DNA of 64,000 nucleotides from Anaeromyxobacter terrae (GTDB lineage: Bacteria; Myxococcota; Myxococcia; Myxococcales; Anaeromyxobacteraceae): positions 1 to 64,000 of the forward strand of contig NZ_JALCYY010000019.1 in NCBI RefSeq assembly GCF_022690685.1, given 5' to 3'. The notes beneath the pieces are model-generated. The model was not told the origin of the DNA. It saw only the letters and a list, made by a program, of their open reading frames with translations, and ran no database searches. The translations under genes were made by a program, and so were the position numbers. Positions 1-24,970 of this stretch are shown piece after piece; the stretch's first letter is position 1, and every line of letters starts with the position of its first letter.

Positions 1-1
1 G

Positions 2-127
2 GCGATCGAGAGCTACATCGCCATCACGAACGACCAGCCCAAGCCCTTCGTATGGACCAAGTCCGCCGACGAGATCCTCGCCAGCGTTGCGCGTTTCTGC
101 CGGCGGACTTCTGACTCAGGACACTAG
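2..127 (+). CDS. IS630-family transposase, C-terminal end (cut by window start)
   Basis: The window opens inside an ORF read in frame 2 that ends at the TAG at 125-127. The tail contains PKPFVWTKSADEIL followed by a basic, helical end (RFCRRT). The FVWTKSADEIL block is typical of the extreme C-terminus of IS630/Tc1-mariner-like DDE transposases, just after the catalytic core. The catalytic residues lie outside the window, so activity cannot be judged. It marks the edge of an accessory region that continues to about 11.3 kb. Confidence 0.85.
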   Translation, partial: AIESYIAITNDQPKPFVWTKSADEILASVARFCRRTSDSGH

Positions 128-150
128 GCTAGAACGAACAGCGGGAGAGG

Positions 151-282
151 ATGGACCGATTCATCCAGTTCCTCGAGAGCGAGGGCTACTACAACGTCTT
201 CTTCCCGTCCCTGGCTACGAAGGCCCAACCGCTCGGCCTCGAGTACCGGCTCGAGCCTGTCCGTCACAAAGGGAAGCCCTGA
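151..282 (+). CDS. small hypothetical protein (43 aa)
   Basis: The ATG at 151 follows a purine-rich GGGAGAGG ribosome-binding site and opens a 43-codon frame beginning MDRFIQFLESEGYYNVFFP. The product is acidic to neutral and rich in aromatic residues, with no motif I recognise. It starts 23 bases after the transposase stop and ends five bases before the next broken frame, so the two may once have been one transcription unit. It could also be a fragment. Confidence 0.4.
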   Translation: MDRFIQFLESEGYYNVFFPSLATKAQPLGLEYRLEPVRHKGKP

Positions 283-287
283 AGCGG

Positions 288-565
288 GTGACTGAGATCG
301 AGACGTCGTACGTGGTGAAGGTGACCGCGCCCGCCTACGAGGATGTCCTCGAGCCCGAGCAGCTCGCCGAGTACACCGTTCAGCCATCCGGTTCGGCCGC
401 AACTACTTCTGCCGCTTCTACAACGGTGAGTGGCACATGGGGCCAAGCAGCTTCGGCCGAGAAAGGCGCGAGTTTCACCTCGGTGGGAAGCGTGGCGAGA
501 TGGAACTCAGCGCGTCGGCCGACGAGTTTGTTGCCGAGTCGATGCGAGCCCAGGAATGTGCCTAG
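288..565 (+). pseudogene. hypothetical protein broken by a frame change near 384
   Basis: From the GTG at 288 the frame reads VTEIETSYVVKVTAPAYED and stays protein-like to about residue 32. It then turns into low-complexity Ser/Ala/Thr. From 386, one frame over, the sequence becomes protein-like again (FGRNYFCRFYNGEWHMG) and runs to the TAG at 563-565. A single indel around 384 would restore one protein of about 90 residues. The product is not recognised. It is probably a decayed gene of the accessory island. Confidence 0.4.
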
Positions 566-667
566 GGAGCCTCGTTGTACGGCGCCGTCCGTCCTGGGGG
601 GCCACGTGGTTCGTGCGCGATTCGGCCTGAGCGGTCCTGCTCACCCCTCCGTGCGACTCTGAACGAG

Positions 668-698
668 CGCGGCCTCGGCTTTGTTTGCCGAGGCCGCG
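668..698. terminator. strong hairpin terminator 3' of the parB-like gene
   Basis: A perfect 12-bp inverted repeat (CGCGGCCTCGGC at 668-679, GCCGAGGCCGCG at 687-698) flanks a T-rich 7-base loop. It lies 33 bases beyond the parB stop on the minus strand and also 3' of the short plus-strand frames, so it can serve both directions. Confidence 0.6.
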
Positions 699-730
699 TC
701 GAACCGTCAACCCGTGTGAATGGCTGGGTG

Positions 731-1733
<1,003 letters not shown>

Positions 1734-1741
<8 letters not shown>

Positions 1742-2522
1742 GGATCGCCTCCGTCCGAGCAAGGAACTCGTGCACGAAGACCCGATACGCCTCGGGTCCC
1801 TTCGAGTCTTTGAATCGCGCATCGAACAGAGATGCGGCCTCGGCCATCGAGCGCGCGATCGCGACGGCGCGCGGGATGCGCGTCTCGTACAGGGCGCCGC
1901 GGCACTTGTCCTCCACGAAGGCAAGCGCTTCCTCCGACTCCTTGTCGCTGGTCCAGAACGTTGGCAGGTACCGGATGAGCGGTCGCGCCTGCCCGTCGAA
2001 CACCTCCTCCAGGATCGTGCTGAGCTCCACGATGCAGCTCGCCGCGAATCGCGTGAGTTGGACGGGCGCGATGATGTGCTCGCACGCGACCAGCGTGTTA
2101 GCCATCACCGCCCCGCCACCCGGTCGGCAGTCGCAGAGGATGAACTCGTAGCGGTCCTCCACCTTGTCGAGGGCGCGCCGCAGCTTCACGGGGCCGCTCA
2201 CCATCGTCTCTTTCCCAAGCCGCATCTCCGTGAGCACCGGGTCTGGGTCGGCCGGCACGAGGTCGAGGTACTCGTCGATTTTCACCGGCGCGAACTCGCG
2301 CTCCGGGTGCAGCATCAACTCTCGCGACGTGTAGCTAACGCGCAGCTTGTCGACCCCGAGCACCAGGCTCAGGTCGGCCATCTGCGGATCCAGGTCGACT
2401 ACCAACGTGCGCTTCTTGTGCTCGCGAAGACCCCACGCGAGCGCCGCTGCCGTCGCTGTCTTACCGACGCCGCCCTTCGGCATCACGACCGCTGCCCTCA
2501 CTGCCCTTCGCTGCTCAGCCAT
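1734..2522 (-). CDS. parA: ParA-family partition ATPase
   Basis: A 262-residue ATPase with the deviant Walker A box KGGVGKT at residues 16-22, the A' motif VVDLDPQ and a Walker-B-like ILCDCRPGG stretch. It has no N-terminal DNA-binding domain, as in small (type Ib or chromosomal-type) ParA proteins. I chose the ATG at 2522 because GGAGG sits at 2530-2534, seven bases upstream; an earlier ATG at 2549 in the same frame lacks such a site. It is followed directly by parB. Three CATGTAG/CTACATG heptamers and a promoter-like sequence lie immediately upstream and may mediate autoregulation. Confidence 0.9.
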
Positions 2523-2533
2523 CCCCGCACCTC

Positions 2534-2586
2534 CATGTAGGCTATGCACCTACATGTCAGCGTATAGGACGCTACATGGATGTCAA
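2534..2586 (-). promoter_or_regulatory. putative parAB promoter/operator with three CTACATG heptamers
   Basis: On the minus strand a perfect TTGACA (-35-like, 2586-2581) precedes TATACG (2566-2561); the 14-base spacing is short, but TACGCT at 16 bases is an alternative -10. The heptamer CATGTAG or its complement CTACATG occurs at 2534-2540, 2550-2556 and 2572-2578, the first two forming an inverted repeat. The arrangement suggests an operator overlapping the promoter, as expected for an autoregulated partition operon. Confidence 0.45.
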
Positions 2587-2633
2587 CACGCATCTACGTG
2601 GTTCTCGGGCAGCCGCTGCTGAGCGCTGCTCGT

Positions 2634-2653
2634 CGACGTCACCGGTGACGTCG
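2634..2653. promoter_or_regulatory. 20-bp perfect palindrome, candidate parS-like site or operator
   Basis: CGACGTCACCGGTGACGTCG is fully self-complementary over 20 bases. It lies 112 bases upstream of the parA start and 219 bases upstream of the HEPN gene, in the divergent region between them. ParB binding sites are palindromes of about this size, but the sequence differs from the well-known chromosomal parS, so a dedicated parS or a repressor operator are both possible. Confidence 0.4.
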
Positions 2654-2871
2654 CGCTCGTTGCCACGGTGTCCCGCCGACTGGCTTGGCATCCTAACTGG
2701 CCACGGCTGTGAGAGCGGGGGGCTCAGCCCTGGTCAGAGCCGACGACGAGCAGCGCCACCCCCTCCGCCCGCAGTAGGCTACGCTTGCTGCTCGCGCCAC
2801 GGCAGGGAGCCGCCAGCACGGCGCAGTGGTACGCGGCGCCGGTCCGTCACTCAAACCACCGCGAAAAGAGA

Positions 2872-3843
2872 ATGGCTACACGTCCTCAGCAGCCCAAGGA
2901 TCCGCTTCTCGCAAACGCGATCGAGGCCATCGAGAACGGGATCGAAGATTTCACAGAAGGTCGACCACAGCGCGTGTCTTCGGCGCTTCGGAACCTCTGT
3001 GCCGGCGTGCTGCTTCTGCTGAAGGAGAATCTCCGCCAACTCTCGCCGCCCGGAACCGATGGTGCGCTGATCTTCAAGAAGTTAGTTCCGAAGCCCTTGG
3101 GCGGAGCGGTTGTGTTCGTCGGGAAGGGCAAGTCGACCGTCGACCTGGAAGATATCAGGGAGCGGCTCGAGCCCCTGGGATTCAACGTCGAATGGCAACG
3201 AATCTTCCGGTTGCGAGACCTGCGGAACGATGTGGAGCACCATCGATCCGTGCATCCCCACACAACGATGCAGGAGGCGATCGCGAACACGTTCGTGGTT
3301 GTTGTGAGGATTCTGGAGCAGCTTGGGCTTGAGCCAGCCCACGAGCTCTCTGAGAAAACATGGGCGGAGATGCTGGCCCAAGCCGAGACCTTCAAGGCAC
3401 TGGAAGACGAGTGTCGAAAGTCCATCGACCGCGTGATCGGTGTACCTGACGAGGCACAGGAAACGCTCAGGGTCTGGCGATGCTGTCCGGAATGCAGTTC
3501 GGAGTTGATACAGGCGATCGGAACCGAGTACGCCGACCTAGCCTTTGTCTGCCGAGCCTGCGGCGCTCGGTCGGAGCTCCCAGGCGTCTTGGAGAAGGCC
3601 CTTGAGGGCGAGTATGCGGGCGACGCGTACGAGGCGGCCAAGGATGGCGACGAGCCGCCGCTGGCAGTGTGCCCCAACTGCTGCTCCGAGACCTTTGTGG
3701 TCGCCTCGGACGTCTGCCTGGTGTGCGGCGAGGGACGCAGCTACGAGAACTGCAACTTGTGCGGGAATTCGTTGTCCGTCGAGGAGCAAGACTTCGATGG
3801 ACTGTGTTCCTACTGCCACCATCGGATGACGAAGGACGACTGA
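2872..3843 (+). CDS. HEPN-like protein with C-terminal multi-zinc-ribbon region
   Basis: A 323-residue protein. The ATG at 2872 follows an AAAGAGA site; an upstream GTG/ATG extension is low-complexity. The N-terminal half is all-alpha and ends in RLRDLRNDVEHH, where R118 and H123 form the Rx4H signature of HEPN domains, a fold of many RNases and toxins. The C-terminal part carries six CxxC-type knuckles (C205/208, C227/230, C267/270, C282/285, C294/297, C312/315), enough for two or three zinc ribbons. The metallopeptidase gene follows after 46 bases on the same strand, suggesting one operon. Less GC-rich than flanking chromosome. RNase activity is inferred from the motif only; a regulatory HEPN role is possible. 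Confidence 0.6.
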   Translation: MATRPQQPKDPLLANAIEAIENGIEDFTEGRPQRVSSALRNLCAGVLLLLKENLRQLSPPGTDGALIFKKLVPKPLGGAVVFVGKGKSTVDLEDIRERLEPLGFNVEWQRIFRLRDLRNDVEHHRSVHPHTTMQEAIANTFVVVVRILEQLGLEPAHELSEKTWAEMLAQAETFKALEDECRKSIDRVIGVPDEAQETLRVWRCCPECSSELIQAIGTEYADLAFVCRACGARSELPGVLEKALEGEYAGDAYEAAKDGDEPPLAVCPNCCSETFVVASDVCLVCGEGRSYENCNLCGNSLSVEEQDFDGLCSYCHHRMTKDD

Positions 3844-3889
3844 TGTGCGCGAGGCCCCTGCGACGATTCAGTCGAGGAGTACGCCGCCC

Positions 3890-4549
3890 ATGACTTTCGA
3901 GGCTTCGCTCGCTCTCCTGAGGGAACGCGCCCCTTCCACCGCTCTCAATGGCTGGCGACTCCTTCGCGTAATCAACCGACCGTTCGGTCATCCGGGCGAG
4001 TTCGTACCCAGTCGCGATCCGCGCCAGCTCACGGCGCTCATATACATCCGGACAGGCCGGAGTCCTCGAGACACGCTGTTCACTCTATGTCACGAGCTGG
4101 GTCACTTCTGGTCGCATTCAACCGGGCGACGTGACGCCACGTATATGCGAGCAGTAGTCGAGTTCACGAAGTGGCAGAGTTCGCTCGCGTCAGATATCCG
4201 GAACTCGCCGGAGGTCCTGGCAACTTCACGTGAGTCGGCCACCTACGCACCGGCGTACGACAACGCGCTCAAGAGTGCGTTGTCGCGGCGGCCGAACCCC
4301 CTCTCCGAAGCGGAGAGACACGCGATCGTTTCTGAGGAACTTCGCGCGTGGTGCTTCGGCTATCAAATTGTGGAAGCGCTGAAGGTGCCCACAGGAGAGG
4401 CGTTTGAAGCCGAGGTGAACTCCTCTGTGGCGAATTACTGCGAACGCGCACAAGTCGCGGCCATCGTGTGGGAAGCGAAGGGATGCGCCGAGGACCTGAC
4501 GGTCGCCGACAGGGACTTCATCGCCAGCCTGACGAGGCCGGCCAGTTGA
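3890..4549 (+). CDS. putative zinc metallopeptidase (HExxH, ImmA/IrrE-like)
   Basis: A 219-residue protein with LFTLCHELGHFWSH; H68-E69 and H72 form the HExxH zinc site. A downstream helix SEELRAWCFGYQIVEAL (E149/E150) corresponds in position to the acidic third-ligand helix of ImmA/IrrE (M78) peptidases. Those enzymes cleave repressors or act as antitoxin-like or stress switches. I chose the ATG at 3890 because GAGGAG lies ten bases upstream; a GTG at 3845 would add 15 unconvincing residues. It follows the HEPN gene closely, so the two probably act together. The substrate is unknown. Confidence 0.6.
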   Translation: MTFEASLALLRERAPSTALNGWRLLRVINRPFGHPGEFVPSRDPRQLTALIYIRTGRSPRDTLFTLCHELGHFWSHSTGRRDATYMRAVVEFTKWQSSLASDIRNSPEVLATSRESATYAPAYDNALKSALSRRPNPLSEAERHAIVSEELRAWCFGYQIVEALKVPTGEAFEAEVNSSVANYCERAQVAAIVWEAKGCAEDLTVADRDFIASLTRPAS

Positions 4550-4704
4550 CGGGAGCTTCCATGCGAGTCCAGGGCTGGCCAAGGAGCCTGGATCTGGCGC
4601 CGAGGACGCCGACGCGGCGGGCACGGGCAGATCCAGCTGAAGAGCACGGTCGCCGGTGGTGCCGCTCGCGGCCAGAAGATCCACATCGATCTCGCGCGGC
4701 GGAC

Positions 4705-4875
4705 GATGCCCTGACACTCCGCGACGAACACGAAGTCGATGAACCCAAGGCAGCACGGTTCATGATTCCTTGGGTCGAGCTGGAGGCAGAGGCGGTCCTT
4801 GTCGACCCGCTCGTATGGCGCCCACGGCAGGAAGGCGGGCTTCGCAGCCTGAACTGCGACCACCTCCGCGCGTAG
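4705..4875 (+). pseudogene. fragment of a CoiA-like nuclease gene
   Basis: The frame ending at the TAG 4873-4875 reads HEVDEPKAARFMIPWVELEA and then VDPLVWRPRQEGGLRSLNCD. This matches the middle of the intact CoiA-like protein at 8910-9986 (THAVTKEKAEGLSIPWIELAA, then SPLRWVPHRDGLRPLRCD). Nothing upstream in frame resembles the N-terminal half. It is therefore a remnant of a second, related gene rather than a duplicate at high identity. Confidence 0.6.
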
Positions 4876-5393
4876 GGTTCGAGCACCGCTGGCGCTGGTG
4901 CGTTGCTGTTCCTTCACCATCAGCTCGAAAGCGTAAACAAGCCCGAAGCCCTGCTCCGCGATGGATCAGCGGGCCGTTAACGACGCTCGCTCGCGGGGCT
5001 TGCGCGCGATGACGAGCTTGAGCGGACGAACCCACTTCCCGTTCTTCCAGACACCGCGGTCCGTCCGGCTGTGTCGTCTGGTATTAGTCGAAGAGCTCCC
5101 GGCCACCGAGTCGGCATGAGCTTCCTAGTCCTGGGCGGCCCGCCCGGTGGGCCGATGCCGCCGCTCGACGGCTACCGAATGGCCCGGCACGTGAAGGCCA
5201 ACGCGCAAGGAGTGAAGACCCTTCGTAGAGCGACTCGACAGATTCCCCGCTCTGCTTTTGCACCCGTTCCGGACATCGCCAGCCTCTCGGACTGGCTCTT
5301 CGGGCCGCCCCAAGGGACGACGCGATGACCGCACCGACCGCCACTTCGCGCACATCGATATTCTGGTGTCCGCTCCTCGAGTAACGTGCTCGC
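4876..5393. other. gene-poor stretch with possible decayed coding sequence
   Basis: No convincing gene. On the minus strand near 4975-5075 a short frame reads GVWKNGKWVRPLKLVI, which recalls the EWRDGKWVKRP segment near the C-terminus of the intact CoiA-like protein. On the plus strand at about 5340-5363 the frame reads RHFAHID, identical to that protein's N-terminal RHFAHID. Both matches are too short to prove homology, but they fit debris from CoiA-like genes. Confidence 0.3.
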
Positions 5394-8300
5394 ATGGGCA
5401 CGTTCCGCCGCTCCAGGCTCGCGCCTGGGATCTACGACGAGGTCATTACCGGTGCAGTCGAGGCGCAGCTGCAGCAGCTGGACGGTTCCACCTTCGCGAT
5501 CGAGCGTAAGCATATCGAGAAGTCCGCGGACGTGGCGCCGCCCCTTGCGGCGCTCCTCCGCGACGCGCTCGACCTCACACTGGACGAGCTCGGTGGTGAA
5601 TCCGCGAAAGCGCTCAAGCTGGCCGAGGACGTCCTCGGGACCCTGGCCCGGCATGCGCCCCGCGTCTTCAAGCACGGCGAAGTTCAGCTTCGGCCGGAGC
5701 GGCTCCTTGGGATCGTTCCGAAGCCGGCCGCCCTGCCCTCCTTCCCGCGCGGGTCCCTGCACACTTCGAACCTCATCGTCAACGCCGAGGGCGAGTCGCT
5801 GCTGGACCACCTCCGAAGCGAGTTCGAGAGCGCTGACCGCATCGACCTACTGTGCGCATTTGTGAAGCTGAGCGGGTTCGAGAAGCTCCGCTCGGCTATC
5901 GAGCGCCACTGCATCTCCCGTGGGCGGCCACTTCGCGTTCTCACGACGACGTATATGGGCGCGTCGGATGCTCGGGCCATCGAGCGGTTCGCTGCGCTAC
6001 CGAACTCGGCGATCCGGGTCTCCTACGACGACCAAACCACGCGCCTCCATGCGAAGGCCTGGGTGTTCCACCGGGAGAGCGGCGTCTCGACCGCGTACGT
6101 CGGCAGCTCGAACCTCTCCCACGCCGCGCAGACCGACGGCCTCGAGTGGAACGTCCGCGTCACCGAAGGCGACCAGCCGGTGCTGCTGGCTCAAATGGCG
6201 GAGACCTTCGAGCAGTACTGGGCTGACCAGGCGCTGTTCGAGCCCTTCGAAGCCGGGAAGGAGGCGCACCGGAAACGGCTCGCGCGAAGCCTCGCCGCCG
6301 CCGACCGAGATCCCGGACTCGACGCGCTGATCGAGCTCGAGGCCAAGCCGTTCCAGAAGCCCGTCCTCGAGGAGCTCGCCGCCGCGCGCGCCCTCGGACG
6401 TCGCCGTAACCTCCTGGTGGCCGCCACCGGTACGGGCAAGACCGTGATGGCCGCCCTCGACTACGTGGCGCTGCGCCAAGCGGGCACGGTCGACACGCTC
6501 CTGTTCGTCGCGCACCGCCGCGAGATCCTAGAGCAGGCCCGAGCGCTGTATCGCGCCGCTCTTCAGTCCTCGGAGTTCGGTGAGCTCCTGTACCAGGGGC
6601 AGGAGCCCACCATCGGCCATCACGTCTTCGCGTCCATCGACTCCCTCCGTGACGACCGGCTCGATCCGAAGCGGTTCGACATGATCGTCATCGACGAGGC
6701 GCACCACTCGCCGGCGTTTAAGTGGGAGTCGTTCCTGGCGAAGGTAGGCGACCGCGCCGAGGTCCTCGGCCTCACCGGGACTCCCGAGCGCGCCGACGGC
6801 CTCGACTACGACCATCTCTTCCCGCGGCCCTGGATCGGCAATCTCCGGATCTGGAACGCCATCCCGCAGGCTCTCGTGCCGTTCCGCTACTACATGCTCG
6901 AAGTTGAGGGCGTGGACCTCCGGGACGTGGGCTGGGCCGCTGGACGGTACGCATCCGACGAGCTCGCCGGAAAGCTCATCGGGGCCGCCGAGCTGTTCGT
7001 GCACCGCGCCGTAAAGGCGGTCGCCGAGTACGTCGCTCGCCCGGAGCAGCTTCGGGCGATCGCCTTCTGCGCCAGCATCCGGCACGCCGAGATCGTCGCG
7101 GAACAGTTCGCAAGACGAGGCTTCCGCGCACAGGTGCTCACAGGCGAGACACCGGCGTTGGAACGGCGCCAGGCCAGGAGCGACCTCAACCTCGGCAAGA
7201 TCCAGGTCCTCTGCGTCGTCGACATCTACAACGAGGGGGTCGACGTCCCGAACGTCAACACGCTCTTCTTCTTCCGTCCGACGGAGAGCTCGACGGTGTT
7301 CCTGCAACAGCTCGGCCGCGGGCTCCGCCTCGCGCGCAACAAGGCCGAGCTCGTCGTCTTCGATCTGACCGGTCGCCAGCATGACGGATTCCGCTTCGAT
7401 CAGCGCTTCCGCCGCATGCTCGGGAAGACACCGCGGGAACTTCGCGAGGGTCTTGAGCGCGGGTTTGCAAAGCTCCCGGCGGGCTGTCACCTCCACCTCG
7501 ACGAGATCGCGCGCACGTACGTCCTTGAGCAGCTCGAGCGATCCATTCCGGACACCATCGATGAGCTCCGGGCGCTCCTTCGCGAGCCGGCGCACTCGGG
7601 GCTTTCCCTCGACGATTTCGTTCTCGAGACCGAGGTCGGCCTGGACGTCATATACAGGCAGAAGCGCTCCTGGACCGAGCTGCGCCGTAGCGTCGGGCTG
7701 GAGGACCGCCCGCTCGCGGCAGGTGAAGGTGAGGCGCTCGAGAACATCTGCAAGCTGACCCACGTCGGCGACGGGCTCCGGCTGGAGACGTGGAAGAAGA
7801 TCCTCCGCCTCGAGCGACCGCAGGTTGCGCTCGAGGAGCGCGCGCAGGATATGCTGTTCGCGGTCCTATACGGGCGGGAGCTAGCCGCAAACAGGAACGA
7901 CGCCTGGAACGCGTGGACCCGTCACGAACTCCTCCGCGAAGAAGTCGCGGCGCTAATCCCGGTCCTCGCCCGCGAGAACGCGGTGCTCGCGCCTGATCTC
8001 CGCCTCGAGCCGGCGAACCCGCTCGTCCTGCACGCCCGCTACCTCGGCGTCGAGCTCAGCGCCGCGTTCGAGCGTCGCACCGAGGCCGGCACGTTTCGGG
8101 ACTTCTACACCGGCGTCGAGCCGGTGGCGGACGGCCGTTTCGACATGCTCCTAGTCACTCTCGAGAAGAGCGCCGCGCAGAAGGAGCACCTCCGCTACCG
8201 GGATTTCCCGCTCTCCGACCGGCGTTTCCACTGGCAATCGAAGGCGGGTACGACCCAGGCGTCGAAACAGGGACGCCGCCACCTGAGTCCGCAGAGCGAG

Positions 8301-8486
8301 GGATGCACGCCCTTGCTGTTCGTCCGCGAGCGTGCAGACGCCCGACCCGGCGTGACGATGGCCTTCCGTTATCTCGGCCCGGTCCAGCCGGTACGTGTAG
8401 AGGGTGAGAGGCCGATCACCATCGAGTGGGACCTGGCGAATCCCATGCCGCCGGAGCTCGTCCGGGTGGGACGCATTGCGTCTTGA
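5394..8486 (+). CDS. PLD-nuclease / DEAH helicase / DUF3427 protein
   Basis: A 1030-residue multidomain protein. A phospholipase-D-like nuclease domain comes first, with the HxK motif at HAKAW (H219) and YVGSSNLSHAA after it. A superfamily 2 helicase follows: Walker A ATGTGKT at 344-350, DEAH box at 434-437, motif III LTGTPERADG, and motif VI QQLGRGLRLA near 638. The C-terminal 300 residues match the DUF3427-type end of such proteins. The architecture predicts an ATP-driven DNA translocase with its own nuclease; relatives often lie in mobile or defence islands, which fits this context. It stands alone on its strand, about 0.8 kb after the metallopeptidase gene. No frameshift is visible, so it is probably functional. 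Confidence 0.85.
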   Translation: MGTFRRSRLAPGIYDEVITGAVEAQLQQLDGSTFAIERKHIEKSADVAPPLAALLRDALDLTLDELGGESAKALKLAEDVLGTLARHAPRVFKHGEVQLRPERLLGIVPKPAALPSFPRGSLHTSNLIVNAEGESLLDHLRSEFESADRIDLLCAFVKLSGFEKLRSAIERHCISRGRPLRVLTTTYMGASDARAIERFAALPNSAIRVSYDDQTTRLHAKAWVFHRESGVSTAYVGSSNLSHAAQTDGLEWNVRVTEGDQPVLLAQMAETFEQYWADQALFEPFEAGKEAHRKRLARSLAAADRDPGLDALIELEAKPFQKPVLEELAAARALGRRRNLLVAATGTGKTVMAALDYVALRQAGTVDTLLFVAHRREILEQARALYRAALQSSEFGELLYQGQEPTIGHHVFASIDSLRDDRLDPKRFDMIVIDEAHHSPAFKWESFLAKVGDRAEVLGLTGTPERADGLDYDHLFPRPWIGNLRIWNAIPQALVPFRYYMLEVEGVDLRDVGWAAGRYASDELAGKLIGAAELFVHRAVKAVAEYVARPEQLRAIAFCASIRHAEIVAEQFARRGFRAQVLTGETPALERRQARSDLNLGKIQVLCVVDIYNEGVDVPNVNTLFFFRPTESSTVFLQQLGRGLRLARNKAELVVFDLTGRQHDGFRFDQRFRRMLGKTPRELREGLERGFAKLPAGCHLHLDEIARTYVLEQLERSIPDTIDELRALLREPAHSGLSLDDFVLETEVGLDVIYRQKRSWTELRRSVGLEDRPLAAGEGEALENICKLTHVGDGLRLETWKKILRLERPQVALEERAQDMLFAVLYGRELAANRNDAWNAWTRHELLREEVAALIPVLARENAVLAPDLRLEPANPLVLHARYLGVELSAAFERRTEAGTFRDFYTGVEPVADGRFDMLLVTLEKSAAQKEHLRYRDFPLSDRRFHWQSKAGTTQASKQGRRHLSPQSEGCTPLLFVRERADARPGVTMAFRYLGPVQPVRVEGERPITIEWDLANPMPPELVRVGRIAS

Positions 8487-8538
8487 GCCGGAAACTGTGG
8501 ACCGTCACACCGATCGCCCGGCTCCACAGACCCCTATT

Positions 8539-8796
8539 CTACTGGCAGTAGACCATCTTTCCGCCAATAAGCACGATCCGATGATTACCGGCCTCATACG
8601 TCTCATCACCAGTCTGCCGCACCGGCCCGTGTCTCCGTAGTCTCCGAAGCCGCTCGTCAGTTGTGATTCCGACAGCGAAGGGATCGGCCCCGTGATCGAG
8701 GTATTCCTGTAGTTGGGGCGGCCGGGTACACCCAGCGCAGCGTCAGTCCCCTACTGTATCCTTGCGGCACTGGGGAGGGTGCTCGCCGTGTCCCAT
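8539..8796 (-). pseudogene. short hypothetical gene with an in-frame TGA
   Basis: On the minus strand an ATG at 8796 opens a frame interrupted after 17 codons by TGA (8745-8743) that then stays open for 67 codons to the TAG at 8541-8539. The open part is strikingly protein-like: LQEYLDHGADPFAVGITTDE, then ETYEAGNHRIVLIGGKMVYC at the end. No start codon lies after the TGA in frame. I do not recognise the family. It is either a decayed gene or one started at an unseen site; the rest of 8487-8909 holds nothing else I can support. Confidence 0.4.
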
Positions 8797-8909
8797 GAAG
8801 CGACCGACGCCGGAACTCCCAGCCGCCCGGAACATCTCGTCCTCTGGGCGATGAGTAGCCCCTCGCGCTCCCTTGGCATTCGGTAACATTCGACTTGCGG
8901 AGGCCAGAT

Positions 8910-9986
8910 TTGCTCAGCGTTCCATGGGCGCTCGACGCGAACGGGCAGCTTGTTACCCCTGACGACGTTTCGTCAAGCGAGGGCATTCGGTGCCCGAATT
9001 CAGCCTGTGGCAGTCGCCTGATTCTTCGCGCCGGGGAGAAGCGGGTTCGCCACTTCGCTCATATCGATGAGGGTCGGTGTTCTCAGGAGAGCATTGAGCA
9101 TGCGGCCGCGAAGTACCTCCTGGTGAAGCTCGTTCTGGCATCCCTGTCAGAGCCGGGGAAGCGACCGGTCATCCATCGTCGCTGTCCCGAATGCGGCAAG
9201 GTAGTTCCTCAGCCATTGCCCGATAAAGTCAAGGACGCTCGAGTAGAGGGAACGGTGGATGGCTTTCGCGCGGACGTTCTACTCTTGGACGACGCCCAGC
9301 GACCTCTCTGCGCTCTTGAGGTGCTCCATACGCACGCGGTGACCAAGGAGAAGGCGGAGGGTCTTTCGATTCCTTGGATCGAACTCGCGGCAGCCCAGGT
9401 TCTCGCTTCGCCGCTGCGGTGGGTCCCGCACAGAGATGGCCTTCGACCTCTGCGATGTGACCACGCAGGAACCGACTACCTTCTCAGGAAGGAAGAGGAG
9501 GCAAGGCGCAAGAAGAGGGCTGGGGAAGACGAAGAAAGGCGCAAGCGAGAGGCTGCTGAAGAAGGAGCAAGGCGCAAACGGGAGGCTGCAGAGGAGGAAG
9601 CAAGGCGGGTCGAGACGATCCGTATTCGCGCCGGATGGTGTCCGTTTCCTCTGGCTCCTGGCGAGTATCTCGCGGAAATCACGGGCCCCGCATACCGCTG
9701 GTGGCCGATTTACGCGTGGCGGTCCGAATCGATGCAGCAGGCAATCACGGTGGTGGAGGCGCGCCTCCGGGACAGCCGCGAGTTCTGCCGCTACTTCCAA
9801 CCACGGAGCACCGTCTCGGTATCGATACGAGATTGGAACGGAACCTTAGTAGGGGGGGAATGGCGAGATGGAAAGTGGGTCAAACGCCCCGCGGACGGGG
9901 GCGTTGTGGACCGGGATCTCCGTGCCGTACGGACCGTACGAGTGCGGCTAGTGATGCCGCCCATAGGTCGCAGGCCGAGGATGTAG
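8910..9986 (+). CDS. CoiA-like (competence-type) nuclease family protein with charged coiled coil
   Basis: A 358-residue protein. I chose the TTG at 8910 because GGAGG at 8899-8903 precedes it by six bases. The N-terminal part has a CxxxxC-type zinc knuckle (CPNSAC) followed by RHFAHID, a hallmark of CoiA-like proteins, and a second pair CPEC. A PD-(D/E)xK-like core follows (FRADVLLLD, then LCALEVLHTH), then IPWIEL. Next is a strongly charged coiled coil with near-identical tandem units (RRKREAAEEGA, RRKREAAEEEA). The C-terminal domain (about residues 245-358) is not recognised. Function is probably DNA processing or defence. A related fragment lies at 4705-4875. Confidence 0.65.
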   Translation: MLSVPWALDANGQLVTPDDVSSSEGIRCPNSACGSRLILRAGEKRVRHFAHIDEGRCSQESIEHAAAKYLLVKLVLASLSEPGKRPVIHRRCPECGKVVPQPLPDKVKDARVEGTVDGFRADVLLLDDAQRPLCALEVLHTHAVTKEKAEGLSIPWIELAAAQVLASPLRWVPHRDGLRPLRCDHAGTDYLLRKEEEARRKKRAGEDEERRKREAAEEGARRKREAAEEEARRVETIRIRAGWCPFPLAPGEYLAEITGPAYRWWPIYAWRSESMQQAITVVEARLRDSREFCRYFQPRSTVSVSIRDWNGTLVGGEWRDGKWVKRPADGGVVDRDLRAVRTVRVRLVMPPIGRRPRM

Positions 9987-10821
9987 TGTGATGGGCTTGA
10001 TCCGGTCTTGCAGACGACGAACGGGGGGCGAGTACGGTGTCCCGAACAAGCTGCACCGATGTCCAACTTTGCAGGTACGCTTGATCTGTGAGGCCCATGC
10101 CCAGTCCTCGTTTGGCGAAGCCTACGGGCGTGCGCCCTCTCGAGGGCGTGTGCTTGACCGACGCCTGGAGTCGCCGACCACGGCTACTTCACCATCCGAG
10201 GATTTTGACGGAATCTTGCCGTGAACCGTGTCGATTTCGTGCGAGTCCGGTTGCCTTCTGTGGTCGACATTGCCGCCGTAACTATTGTGAATCCTTCGCA
10301 TCCGTAGTCTTCGCGCACGCCTGCACGCGTGGTCAATGAGGACTACGAATCCGAAGGCCAGGCGGCCATAGGCTTCCTTTTCGCCAAGGACGACATCGCT
10401 ACATCCTGCGCCACCCGTCGTGGGCTGCGTTTGATTTGCTGTGCGTAGCAGGAACCGGCGCTTGACCCGTCATCTCGGTCCTAAACCACGACTGCTGAAG
10501 TGCTCTTGGCGAATGTAACCCGGCGCGCCCGGTCCGGACCGGCAGCTCGAGTAGCCGGTCGCGCTCGCCGCAGACGGCAAGCTGGTGCAGGGGTATCTGG
10601 ACCTCCTCGGGCGCGACGGACGGCTCGTGGTGGTTGACTCTAAGGCAGACGCACCACCGGCGGACACGCGCATGCGACGCATGCGACGGACGGTGCGGGG
10701 TTCCGCCACAGCGAACTCCTCGAGCATCCGCCCGTAGCTCCCCACCTGCCCGCACATTCCCGATCGGCCTCGGACGCCGATGGGACTCACGGCAGTATCA
10801 TCACGCAATGGAGGTCACCGC
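9987..10821. other. gene-poor stretch containing gene debris
   Basis: No intact gene. A small hairpin (CGCCCT 10133-10138, AGGGCG 10143-10148) lies about 150 bases beyond the CoiA-like gene. Around 10385-10465 short frames look protein-like (RYILRHPSWAAFDLLCVAG) but have no start. The only recognisable remnant is the nuclease piece at 10561-10650, listed separately. Confidence 0.4.
10561..10650 (+). pseudogene. remnant of an AddA/UvrD-type PD-(D/E)xK nuclease domain
   Basis: The frame reads DGKLVQGYLDLLGRDGRLVV followed by VDSKAD. This is the signature of the C-terminal nuclease of AddA-like helicase-nucleases (GxxDLx...VVDYKTD), with S in place of the usual Y. A TAG stop sits nine bases upstream in frame, and the frame loses sense soon after, so only about 30 codons survive. 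Confidence 0.55.
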
Positions 10822-11287
10822 GTGCTCAAAGACGCTTCGAACCAGATACGCACCGGCCCGTGGCTCGACCGCCTCTTTCCGATTCACCTCCCCAGCGGAC
10901 GTATGCTGTCCGTGACGCAGTTCTCGGCGCTGCCGTCGACTTTCGGGATCCTGGGAGACGGGCTCTTCCCTGAGGCGAACGCGATGCAGCGCGACAAGGT
11001 CGTCGCGCTCGCACCGCGACGGTACGGCGAGCCAGTCGTTGTGTCTGAGCCCGGCATCGTGCCGCTCTCGGAAGGCTCGCGCCCGGGTCTTCGGCGGGAG
11101 CGCCTACCGTGGATGGCCTGCGTCGCGCGGCTCACATCGGCCCCCTCTGGACGAAGATGTGGTCGCGTCGGAGCTCACGCCGGTGTGTTGGCAAGACGCG
11201 TTCACTGAACCGCTACCGAGCGAGATCCAGCGCGTCGCCGCGTCATTGGACTGGGACGCGCTCGCGCGTGACGTGGATCTCCCGTAA
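10822..11287 (+). pseudogene. hypothetical protein gene with a frameshift near 11146-11151
   Basis: A GTG at 10822 follows GGAGG (10810-10814) by seven bases and opens a protein-like frame (WLDRLFPIHLPSGRMLSVTQ). It stays convincing to about residue 110, then becomes Arg-rich. From the CCCCC run at 11146-11150 the +1 frame continues as LDEDVVASELTPVCWQDAFT and ends DWDALARDVDLP at 11287. One base lost or gained in the C run would give a single protein of about 154 residues. Not recognised. Either a real mutation or a sequencing error. Confidence 0.55.
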
Positions 11288-11634
11288 CGACCATCAACAC
11301 TGGCGCCCGACGCGCAGCCCCCCGCGACGCGCCGGGCTGCCAGTCCCCCCACCCCGGCCCCGCCGCAACCTCACCAGCGCTTCGACCGCCTCCGCGCGAG
11401 CCCACGGCCCACGCTCGCGGTACGCTTCGGCGACTCGCGCCTGGCGCCGAACGAATCTGCCATCCGGTCCTGCGCCGCGGTCGTCTTCCCCTCTGCCCCA
11501 TGGAGCGCAGGTCTCCGAGCGCCTCGTCCTGGTAGAGCGTCGTCGCGTTCCGCGAGCCGCCCTTCCGGATGCTAGCTGTTCCAGGAGGCGATGGCCGCGC
11601 GTGGCCACGACGGGTCGCGAGCGCGGCGCGGAAG
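11288..11634. other. intergenic stretch at the island edge
   Basis: Very GC-rich with long open frames in several phases but no frame with a credible start, ribosome site or motif. Composition changes here from the mixed island to the uniformly GC-rich chromosome, so it may hold the junction. No obvious direct repeats or attachment core were seen by eye. Confidence 0.3.
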
Positions 11635-12144
11635 ATGGCCGACCGGGTCGGGAACGCCGACGCGTTCCACGGGAGCCGCGCCTACCCGGGCAAGTGCGGT
11701 CGCGGCGTCTACGCCAACTGGGACCGGAGCCTCGCGAAGGACCTCGCGCGCCTGCGCGACCGGACGGAGGTTCTCGTGACGCTCATCGAGGCGTTCGAGA
11801 TGAAGAGCGCGAGCATCCCGACCCTCCGGCAGTCGGCGCGACGCACCGGGATGAAGTCGCTCTGGTTCCCCATCGCCGACGTCTCGACGCCGCGCTCTCC
11901 CGAGGACCCGATCCCGCTCGTGGGCGAGGTCCTCGAGCACATTGCGGCAGGCGATACCGTGGTCGTCCACTGCATGGGCGGTCTCGGGCGTGCCGGCACG
12001 ATCGCCGCCTGCGTCCTCACGGCGCGCGACATCGAGCCGGACAGGGCGATCGAGCTCGTCCGGGCCGCCCGCCCGGATGCGCTCGAGACGCCTGCGCAGG
12101 TCGCGTTCGTGGGCCGCTTCCGCGATGCGTGGCTGTCGAGGTGA
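11635..12144 (+). CDS. dual-specificity-type protein phosphatase
   Basis: About 169 residues from the ATG at 11635; an in-frame ATG at 11569 would add 22 Arg-rich residues, and neither start has a good ribosome site. The P-loop VVHCMGGLGRAG (H112, C113, R119) fits the HCx5R signature of the cyclin-dependent-kinase-inhibitor-3/dual-specificity class of cysteine phosphatases. The general-acid region is FPIADVSTP. A second gene at 28494-28937 is clearly related but lacks the P-loop. Substrate unknown. No operon partner is obvious; a YbjN-like gene follows after 71 bases. Confidence 0.8.
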   Translation: MADRVGNADAFHGSRAYPGKCGRGVYANWDRSLAKDLARLRDRTEVLVTLIEAFEMKSASIPTLRQSARRTGMKSLWFPIADVSTPRSPEDPIPLVGEVLEHIAAGDTVVVHCMGGLGRAGTIAACVLTARDIEPDRAIELVRAARPDALETPAQVAFVGRFRDAWLSR

Positions 12145-23779: not shown

Positions 23780-24970
23780 TTACGGACCGATCACGCTGAC
23801 GATCGCCTGCAGCTGCTCGTCCGTCAGGCCGAACGCCATGTTGCGGTCCTTGATCAGCTGGACCGTGATGCCCTTGCCCTTCAGGTTGCTCGTCTCGAGC
23901 GGCCCGTGGCAGCTCGCGCAGGACTGGCCGTACAGCGCGGCGCCGTCGATCGGGGGCGTGTACGTGCACGCCTGCTGGACGATGGGTGTGCCGCCGGTGC
24001 AGCCGTCCGGCGACGAGGTGAGCACGGTGCGCGTCTGCGTGCCGTCCGGCTGGCAGGCGCTCCAGTCCGAGTAGGTGAAGGAGGTGCACTCGACGGCGGG
24101 CGGCGTGTACGTGCAGGCCTGCGAGAGCACCGGGCTACCGCCGGTGCAGCCCTCGGGCGAGGACGTCAGCACCGTGCGCGTCTGCGTCCCGTCGGACTGG
24201 CAGGCGCTCCAGTCCGAGTAGGTGAAGCTCGTGCAGGTCGCCGGGGGAGTGTAGGTGCACGGCTGCGAGAGTTCCGGGCTACCGCCGGTGCAGCCCTCGG
24301 GCGAGGACGTCAGCACGGTGCGCGTCTGCGTCCCGTCGGGCTGGCACGCGTCCCAGTCCGAGTAGGTGAAGCTCGAGCACGTCACCGGGGGCTGGCCGTA
24401 CGTGCACGACTGCGTGAGGACGGGCGTACCCGTACAGCCATCGGGGCTGGAGGAGATCACGGTCCGCGTCTGCGTCCCGTCCGGCTGGCAGGCGCTCCAG
24501 TCCGAGTAGGCATACGTGCACGCCGTCGGAGGAGTCACCGCCGCCGGAAGGTTTTCCGCGTGGAACACTCCGGAGGCGAGGTCCGTGAGTGGTGCCGAGA
24601 AGATCACCCCGCCCGTCTCGCGGTTGGTGATCGTCACGTTCCCCTCGCGGTCGCGGGTGATCTTGACGACGCCGAGCAGCGGCACGACGCCGGTGCTCCC
24701 CTCGATCGCCACGGGCCTCGGGACCCGGAAGTTCTCGAACAGCGGGGCCAGCGCCGGGACCGTGCGCAGCTCGTTCAGGACGTCCATGAACGTCTTCACC
24801 GCCCGCTCGGGCGCGACCCCGGGTGACAGCTCCCTCGCGGCCGCGCGGACGGCCGCGGTGGCCTGCGCGTCGGCGGCGGGCGGGGAGCTGCCGTCACCGC
24901 ATCCACTGGTCGTCAACCCGGCGACGAGCGCGCCGACGGCGAGCGAGTTGAGAATCCGGTTCATCTGCAT
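23780..24970 (-). CDS. lipoprotein with four thrombospondin-type repeats and a C-terminal c-haem motif
   Basis: A 396-residue exported protein; the ATG at 24970 follows GGAG by five bases. The signal peptide has a lipobox (GLTTSGC). After about 130 residues come four near-identical units of about 48 residues (YSDWSACQPDGTQTRTV..SSPDGCTG..), a TSP1-like Cys/Trp pattern also found in other bacterial surface proteins. The C-terminal 60 residues hold LYGQSCASCHG (CxxCH), KGKGITVQLIKDR and a helix ending in ISVIGP-like residues, a mini cytochrome c with no clear distal Met in its usual spacing. Combination of adhesion-like repeats with a haem domain is unusual. Role possibly surface electron transfer (inference). 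Confidence 0.7.
   Translation of the reverse strand: MQMNRILNSLAVGALVAGLTTSGCGDGSSPPAADAQATAAVRAAARELSPGVAPERAVKTFMDVLNELRTVPALAPLFENFRVPRPVAIEGSTGVVPLLGVVKITRDREGNVTITNRETGGVIFSAPLTDLASGVFHAENLPAAVTPPTACTYAYSDWSACQPDGTQTRTVISSSPDGCTGTPVLTQSCTYGQPPVTCSSFTYSDWDACQPDGTQTRTVLTSSPEGCTGGSPELSQPCTYTPPATCTSFTYSDWSACQSDGTQTRTVLTSSPEGCTGGSPVLSQACTYTPPAVECTSFTYSDWSACQPDGTQTRTVLTSSPDGCTGGTPIVQQACTYTPPIDGAALYGQSCASCHGPLETSNLKGKGITVQLIKDRNMAFGLTDEQLQAIVSVIGP

Follow-up and report, generated by a model that had tools for sequence, protein, structure and literature searches.

Chromosomal ParABS systems of Myxococcota consist of a ParA ATPase, a ParB CTPase with a helix-turn-helix (HTH) and repeated 16-bp palindromes near parAB and the origin. 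The chromosomal parS of M. xanthus is TGTTCCACGTGGAACG (PMC3899335). Secondary replicons and plasmids of Burkholderiales carry Bsr-type parS sites, replicon-specific 16-bp perfect palindromes that have diversified together with their ParB proteins. These sites are defined by a central CG, a six-base core of two C, two G, one A and one T, and a T-rich 5' end (PMC5450999). In the ParB/Noc family, residue 173 reads position 1 of the half-site and residue 201 reads position 6; Noc is a ParB-fold protein with an altered 16-bp target, NBS (PMC7383237). Our literature search found no paper on partition of Anaeromyxobacter elements.

The window analysed here, a 64,000-nucleotide stretch of Anaeromyxobacter terrae DNA, is the start of contig C54 of its genome and carries a parAB operon and a 20-bp palindrome (Table 1). 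We read this palindrome, with a probability of roughly 80%, as a parS (centromere) site of an element-borne ParABS, with ParB336 as its putative reader. The mechanism of ParABS itself is well known; what would be new is the sequence version of the proposed, replicon-specific parS. As in the chromosomal systems of Myxococcota, we found a ParA-type Walker ATPase gene in operon with parB, a ParB with a CTP-binding N domain (GERRxxA box) and an HTH, as judged from sequence and predicted fold, and a repeated, presumably cis-acting palindrome with a 16-bp core near parAB and at an origin-like module. The locus differs from them in that ParB336 is 27% identical to the host ParB, the half-site is ACGTCACC and not TGTTCCAC, and the carrier is an integrative element.

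Table 1. Features of the parAB region, of the origin-like module and of related elements (window positions unless a contig or locus is named)
Feature	Location or copies	Strand	Basis or remark
parB, 336 aa (ParB336)	731..1741	minus	ParB_N CTPase domain with GERRWRAAQ box, HTH region, C-terminal domain; proposed palindrome binder
parA, 262 aa, Walker-type ATPase	1734..2522	minus	Pfam AAA_31, 4.5e-26; overlaps parB start, operon parAB
CATGTAG/CTACATG repeats	2534, 2550, 2572; variant CTACGTG 2594 (region 2534..2600)	none	seen in sequence
Candidate parS, parA-side copy, 20-bp perfect palindrome CGACGTCACCGGTGACGTCG	2634..2653	none	recurring core and flank comparison
16-bp core ACGTCACCGGTGACGT	2636..2651	none	invariant in nine of nine copies, three genomes
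PDC-S64 (HEPN-like gene)	2872-3843	rightward	PADLOC
M78-type peptidase	3890-4549		PADLOC
Type IV methyl-directed restriction enzyme	5394-8486		PADLOC
G002 palindrome TTGAACCACGTGGTTCAA	two copies		perfect
G017 palindrome TTGGACCACGTGGTCCAA	two copies		perfect
G009 palindrome TTGGTCCGCGCGGACCAA	two copies		perfect
G018 palindrome TTGGTCCGTGCGGACCAA	three copies		near-perfect, first 18 bp past parB stop
Inverted repeat of 27-28 nt, 8-nt loop (CCGACCCC...GGGGTCGG)	L009 10484-10545; L159 12414-12477		with 12-bp iterons
101-104-bp tandem array	L009 7804-8667 (C35:107803-108666); L159 11513-11883		8.5 copies; 3.6 copies
Defence-cargo hotspot	L009 11000-12881; L159 13073-17169; L200 596-3744		PADLOC
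Orphan group B palindromes	G007:C1:4949291-4949663 (L198 19291-19663); L200 367; L201		genomes without ParB336

ParB336 matched Pfam PF02195 (2.4e-22) and TIGR00180 (5e-31, over the cut-off), and phmmer aligned it with Caulobacter ParB 6t1f at 3.9e-24; the HTH_ParB profile (PF17762) gave no match for this protein. Its predicted fold matched Noc/ParB structures, the helices between residues 142 and 260 being predicted at high confidence, and GERRWRA was kept in all eight aligned ParB proteins. The ParB-family protein KorB of RK2 was likewise matched in both sequence and structure. It differs in its low identity (20% in the structural match) and in being a transcriptional repressor, a role that is only possible for ParB336. 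Upstream of parA, TTGACA (2586-2581) and TATACG (2566-2561) lie on the minus strand, interleaved among the CATGTAG/CTACATG repeats, and the same TTGACA-14-TATACG arrangement is present in A. oryzisoli SG63. A sigma-70 scan upstream of parA returned no standard promoter and no match with standard spacing. We regard 2534-2600, which is separate from the palindrome, as likely to be the promoter/operator region of parA, with the repeats likely forming a separate operator that overlaps the probable parA promoter.

The original prediction had described an exact 20-base palindrome just upstream of parA and unlike the standard chromosomal parS, and it was right on all three points. The palindrome is upstream of both neighbouring genes, 111 bp from the start codon of parA (minus strand, 2522) and 218 bp from the ATG (2872) of the rightward HEPN-like gene. 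It is the longest exact palindrome in the window, and its sequence has no second match there when up to three mismatches are allowed. It departs from the 16-bp consensus TGTTYCACGTGRAACA by more than three mismatches, so that a standard parS is absent from this place; the sole match to the standard consensus in the window was a chance-level site with two mismatches at 24552. An Rfam search of positions 1-12000 found no match. Second-order Markov simulation of such GC-rich sequence gave, per window, about 0.46 palindromes of at least 20 bp and 0.29 of exactly 20 bp. The length alone is therefore weak evidence, and a single palindrome could be due to chance.

We searched for the same sequence elsewhere in the genome and found that it was not randomly scattered. 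The core 18-mer recurred only at C35:110768-110797, within one element, as two overlapping tandem copies with a 12-bp period; a match with two mismatches was present at C52:80900. Among 99 relatives, the exact 18-mer was confined to the genome itself, A. oryzisoli SG63 (three copies within 180 bp) and A. soli SG29 (two copies). Searches with the 16-bp core gave three, two and four copies in the three Anaeromyxobacter genomes, with about 0.008 expected per genome. An order-wide search returned four lone copies in the other 139 genomes, while a reversed-pattern control returned none. All nine copies are intergenic and sit on the same integrative-element backbone, where they either precede parA or accompany an origin-like module made up of a 27-bp inverted repeat and iterons. 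The core is constant across them and the flanks have diverged, except between the SG29 and own copies, whose loci are nearly identical. The fourth SG63 copy, found by its 16-mer core, is TACGTCACCGGTGACGTA; it occupies the position corresponding to the window copy, 147 bp upstream of SG63 parA, and carries a symmetric change of its outer pair. Of the 77 genome stretches listed, those outside Anaeromyxobacter had the 18-mer as a single copy, mostly inside long open frames, and held no ParA/ParB relatives of the window kind. On a Gemmatimonadetes contig (L036 6819-6860) the 18-mer lies in the middle of a perfect 42-bp palindrome (CAGACTCGGGGG...CCCCCGAGTCTG).

In SG29 both places lie on one contig and within one element, separated by 4.6 kb. 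Its order is ParB567, Rep-like protein, inverted repeat and iterons, palindrome, AbiTii gene, ParB336-ParA, palindrome and HEPN-like gene. As this contig holds the equivalents of the C35 end and the C54 start, it is very likely that the own-genome sites are parts of a single element. C35 encodes, no more than 26 kb from the origin module, a tyrosine integrase, a TraG/TraD-like coupling protein, a DnaG-like primase, a transglycosylase and SSB, suggesting that the palindrome-bearing element is likely integrative and probably conjugative, with excision being putative. The iterons accompanying the inverted repeat differ in sequence in each group, and the origin-like module may serve as an oriV, as an oriT or in another way. 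The 478-aa Rep-like protein gave no Pfam or NCBIfam match, and its name is a guess from its position beside the iterons. In different elements, a 101-104-bp tandem array separates ParB567, the second ParB (567 aa) of this element, from the origin/Rep region and is a candidate centromere for that protein.

Relatives of ParB336 with 30-37% identity were found in elements of four further genomes (G002, G017, G009 and G018), each with its own repeated palindromes. These 18-bp sequences (TTGAACCACGTGGTTCAA, TTGGACCACGTGGTCCAA, TTGGTCCGYGCGGACCAA) take the same places as the window's, being located at parB or in the corresponding origin module. A degenerate pattern derived from the palindromes of these distant elements occurred in 7 of 142 genomes, six of these belonging to the family, and its control in none. 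With the window's core in group A and the others in groups B and C, identity in the ParB336 HTH region mirrored the palindrome groups across seven elements (A-A 87-99%, B-B 72%, C-C 78%, B-C 64-71%, A-B/C 31-39%). ParB567 is 61-79% identical among four elements, and its HTH in the own element is 89% identical to that of G002, which has a different palindrome, versus 75% to that of SG63, which has the same one. The palindrome groups track ParB336, not the better conserved ParB567 and not the Rep-like protein. Across 24 family genomes, seven had both palindrome and ParB336, one ParB only, two the palindrome only and 14 neither (Fisher p = 0.0007), a test that is partly circular since the group B/C motif was discovered near parB. 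For the Rep-like protein in the same genomes, p was 0.42. Two genomes, G007 (three sites) and G001 (two sites), carry palindromes without a ParB336-type protein, so the association is not exclusive; G022 has the ParB336 type and no recognised site in a genome that is 79% complete and split into about 560 contigs. A phylum search found the ParB336 family in the window's own family only, and in a search for plasmids carrying a related ParB every match was weak, at less than 60% identity and with less than 80% of the query covered. The suggestion that the island ParB has a dedicated parS is thus supported by the location of repeated, element-confined copies, by a core kept within diverged flanks, by the symmetric substitution and by co-divergence with ParB336 in seven elements.

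We then compared half-sites. That of the host chromosome is TGTTCCAC, and the host has, beside its own parB, five standard-type sites (TGTTCCACGTGGAACG and close variants) within 3 kb (L010), as in M. xanthus. Group B has TGAACCAC or TGGACCAC, group C TGGTCCGC or TGGTCCGT, and group A ACGTCACC. Two of eight positions separate the group B half-site TGAACCAC from the chromosomal one, and by their sequence groups B and C are plainly parS-like. The window half-site shares little with standard parS; group A has the most diverged half-site and likewise the most diverged ParB. Like Bsr parS, the window site, ACGTCACC followed by GGTGACGT, is a 16-bp palindrome with a central CG and a core, ACCGGT, of two C, two G, one A and one T. 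It differs in its 5' end (ACGT, not T-rich) and in belonging to another bacterial order, and its binding is a proposal. With NBS it shares C at half-site position 6. In an alignment read by eye, group A ParB has Leu at 173, with a site lacking G1, and Arg at 201, with a site that has C6, as in Noc/NBS. The residue-201/C6 correspondence is only suggestive, because Arg at 201 also occurs in groups B and C, whose sites lack C6. Unlike Noc, a nucleoid occlusion protein that has no ParA partner, ParB336 is encoded in operon with parA.

If the palindrome is the parS of ParB336, a ParB336 dimer would dock on the core ACGTCACCGGTGACGT with one HTH per half-site ACGTCACC, be loaded as a CTP clamp and spread onto the adjacent DNA. 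ParA may then move the complex, allowing a putatively excised, replicating element to reach both daughter cells. The second cluster of sites is at the origin-like module, and the parA-side copy may also let ParB336 dampen parAB transcription. At the clusters in the origin module, a different DNA-binding protein could be the reader.

This last point leads to the alternative that survives best, though we consider it improbable: the palindrome would be part of a replication or transfer origin and would bind the element's replication initiator or a relaxosome protein, not ParB. Most copies, in all groups, do sit in the module with the inverted repeat and the 12-bp iterons, and in G007 this module persists without parAB. 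However, the SG63 copy upstream of parA lies about 10 kb from the module, the G009 and G018 sites directly follow parB, G017 has sites and no Rep-like protein, and, as described above, palindrome presence does not track that protein. Less probable still is a mere operator for a parAB repressor with no centromere role. It would fit the position of the parA-side copy, 48 bp beyond the TTGACA box, and the repressor function of KorB, but of the nine group A copies only three are at the parA promoter, and in groups B and C the sites follow parB or belong to the origin module. Slightly weaker still is the possibility that ParB567 binds the palindrome. This protein is encoded near site clusters in the own element, SG29, SG63, G002 and G017; near the G009 and G018 sites none was found. 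The mismatch between its HTH similarity and the identity of the palindromes disfavours it as the binder, and it has a candidate target of its own in the tandem array. We reject the operator of a divergent HEPN-like operon, the other explanation in the original prediction, since SG63 keeps four copies, one of them upstream of parA, and its fetched stretches contain no homologue of HEPN or AbiTii, and since groups B and C have other neighbours, even though the palindrome does lie between parA and the HEPN-like gene and the origin-side copy precedes the defence gene AbiTii by about 200 bp. Chance, for which the simulated frequency and the lone 18-mers in open frames elsewhere could be cited, is refuted by the recurrence of nine intergenic copies in one element family.

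The parS reading makes these elements a natural series of ParB proteins with presumed cognate sites of 16-18 bp, made up of three specificity groups from a single bacterial family and the chromosomal pair of the host. Such a series can directly test how ParB target specificity changes on replicons that have to avoid cross-talk with the host. The main irregularity is G007, where an integrase that overlaps a tRNA-Gly gene is found near the three sites and ParAB is absent; these orphan sites may reflect decay or the use of a ParB supplied in trans. Orphan group B palindromes, as clusters or single sites, were also seen in other genomes without ParB336 (Table 1). A possible model for G007 and G001 is SGI1, whose parS-like sites hijack the ParABS of IncC (PMC10954446); IncC is the ParB donor for SGI1, whereas no donor was identified for these two genomes. 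We consider it rather unlikely that two ParB-centromere pairs (ParB336 with the palindromes, ParB567 with the array) coexist in one element, that the parS/origin module is passed on as a unit beside exchangeable defence cargo and that G007 and G001 keep the sites only and borrow another element's ParB in the manner of SGI1.

The palindromes also mark the origin/partition module of an Anaeromyxobacter integrative-element family with changing anti-phage cargo. The stretch from parB to the origin/parS module, or beside this module, is a hotspot of defence genes, which PADLOC identified as AbiTii here, Gabija GajA/GajB in G002 and a Pycsar cyclase with a TIR effector in G001. In the window itself, defence genes (2872-8486) adjoin parAB.
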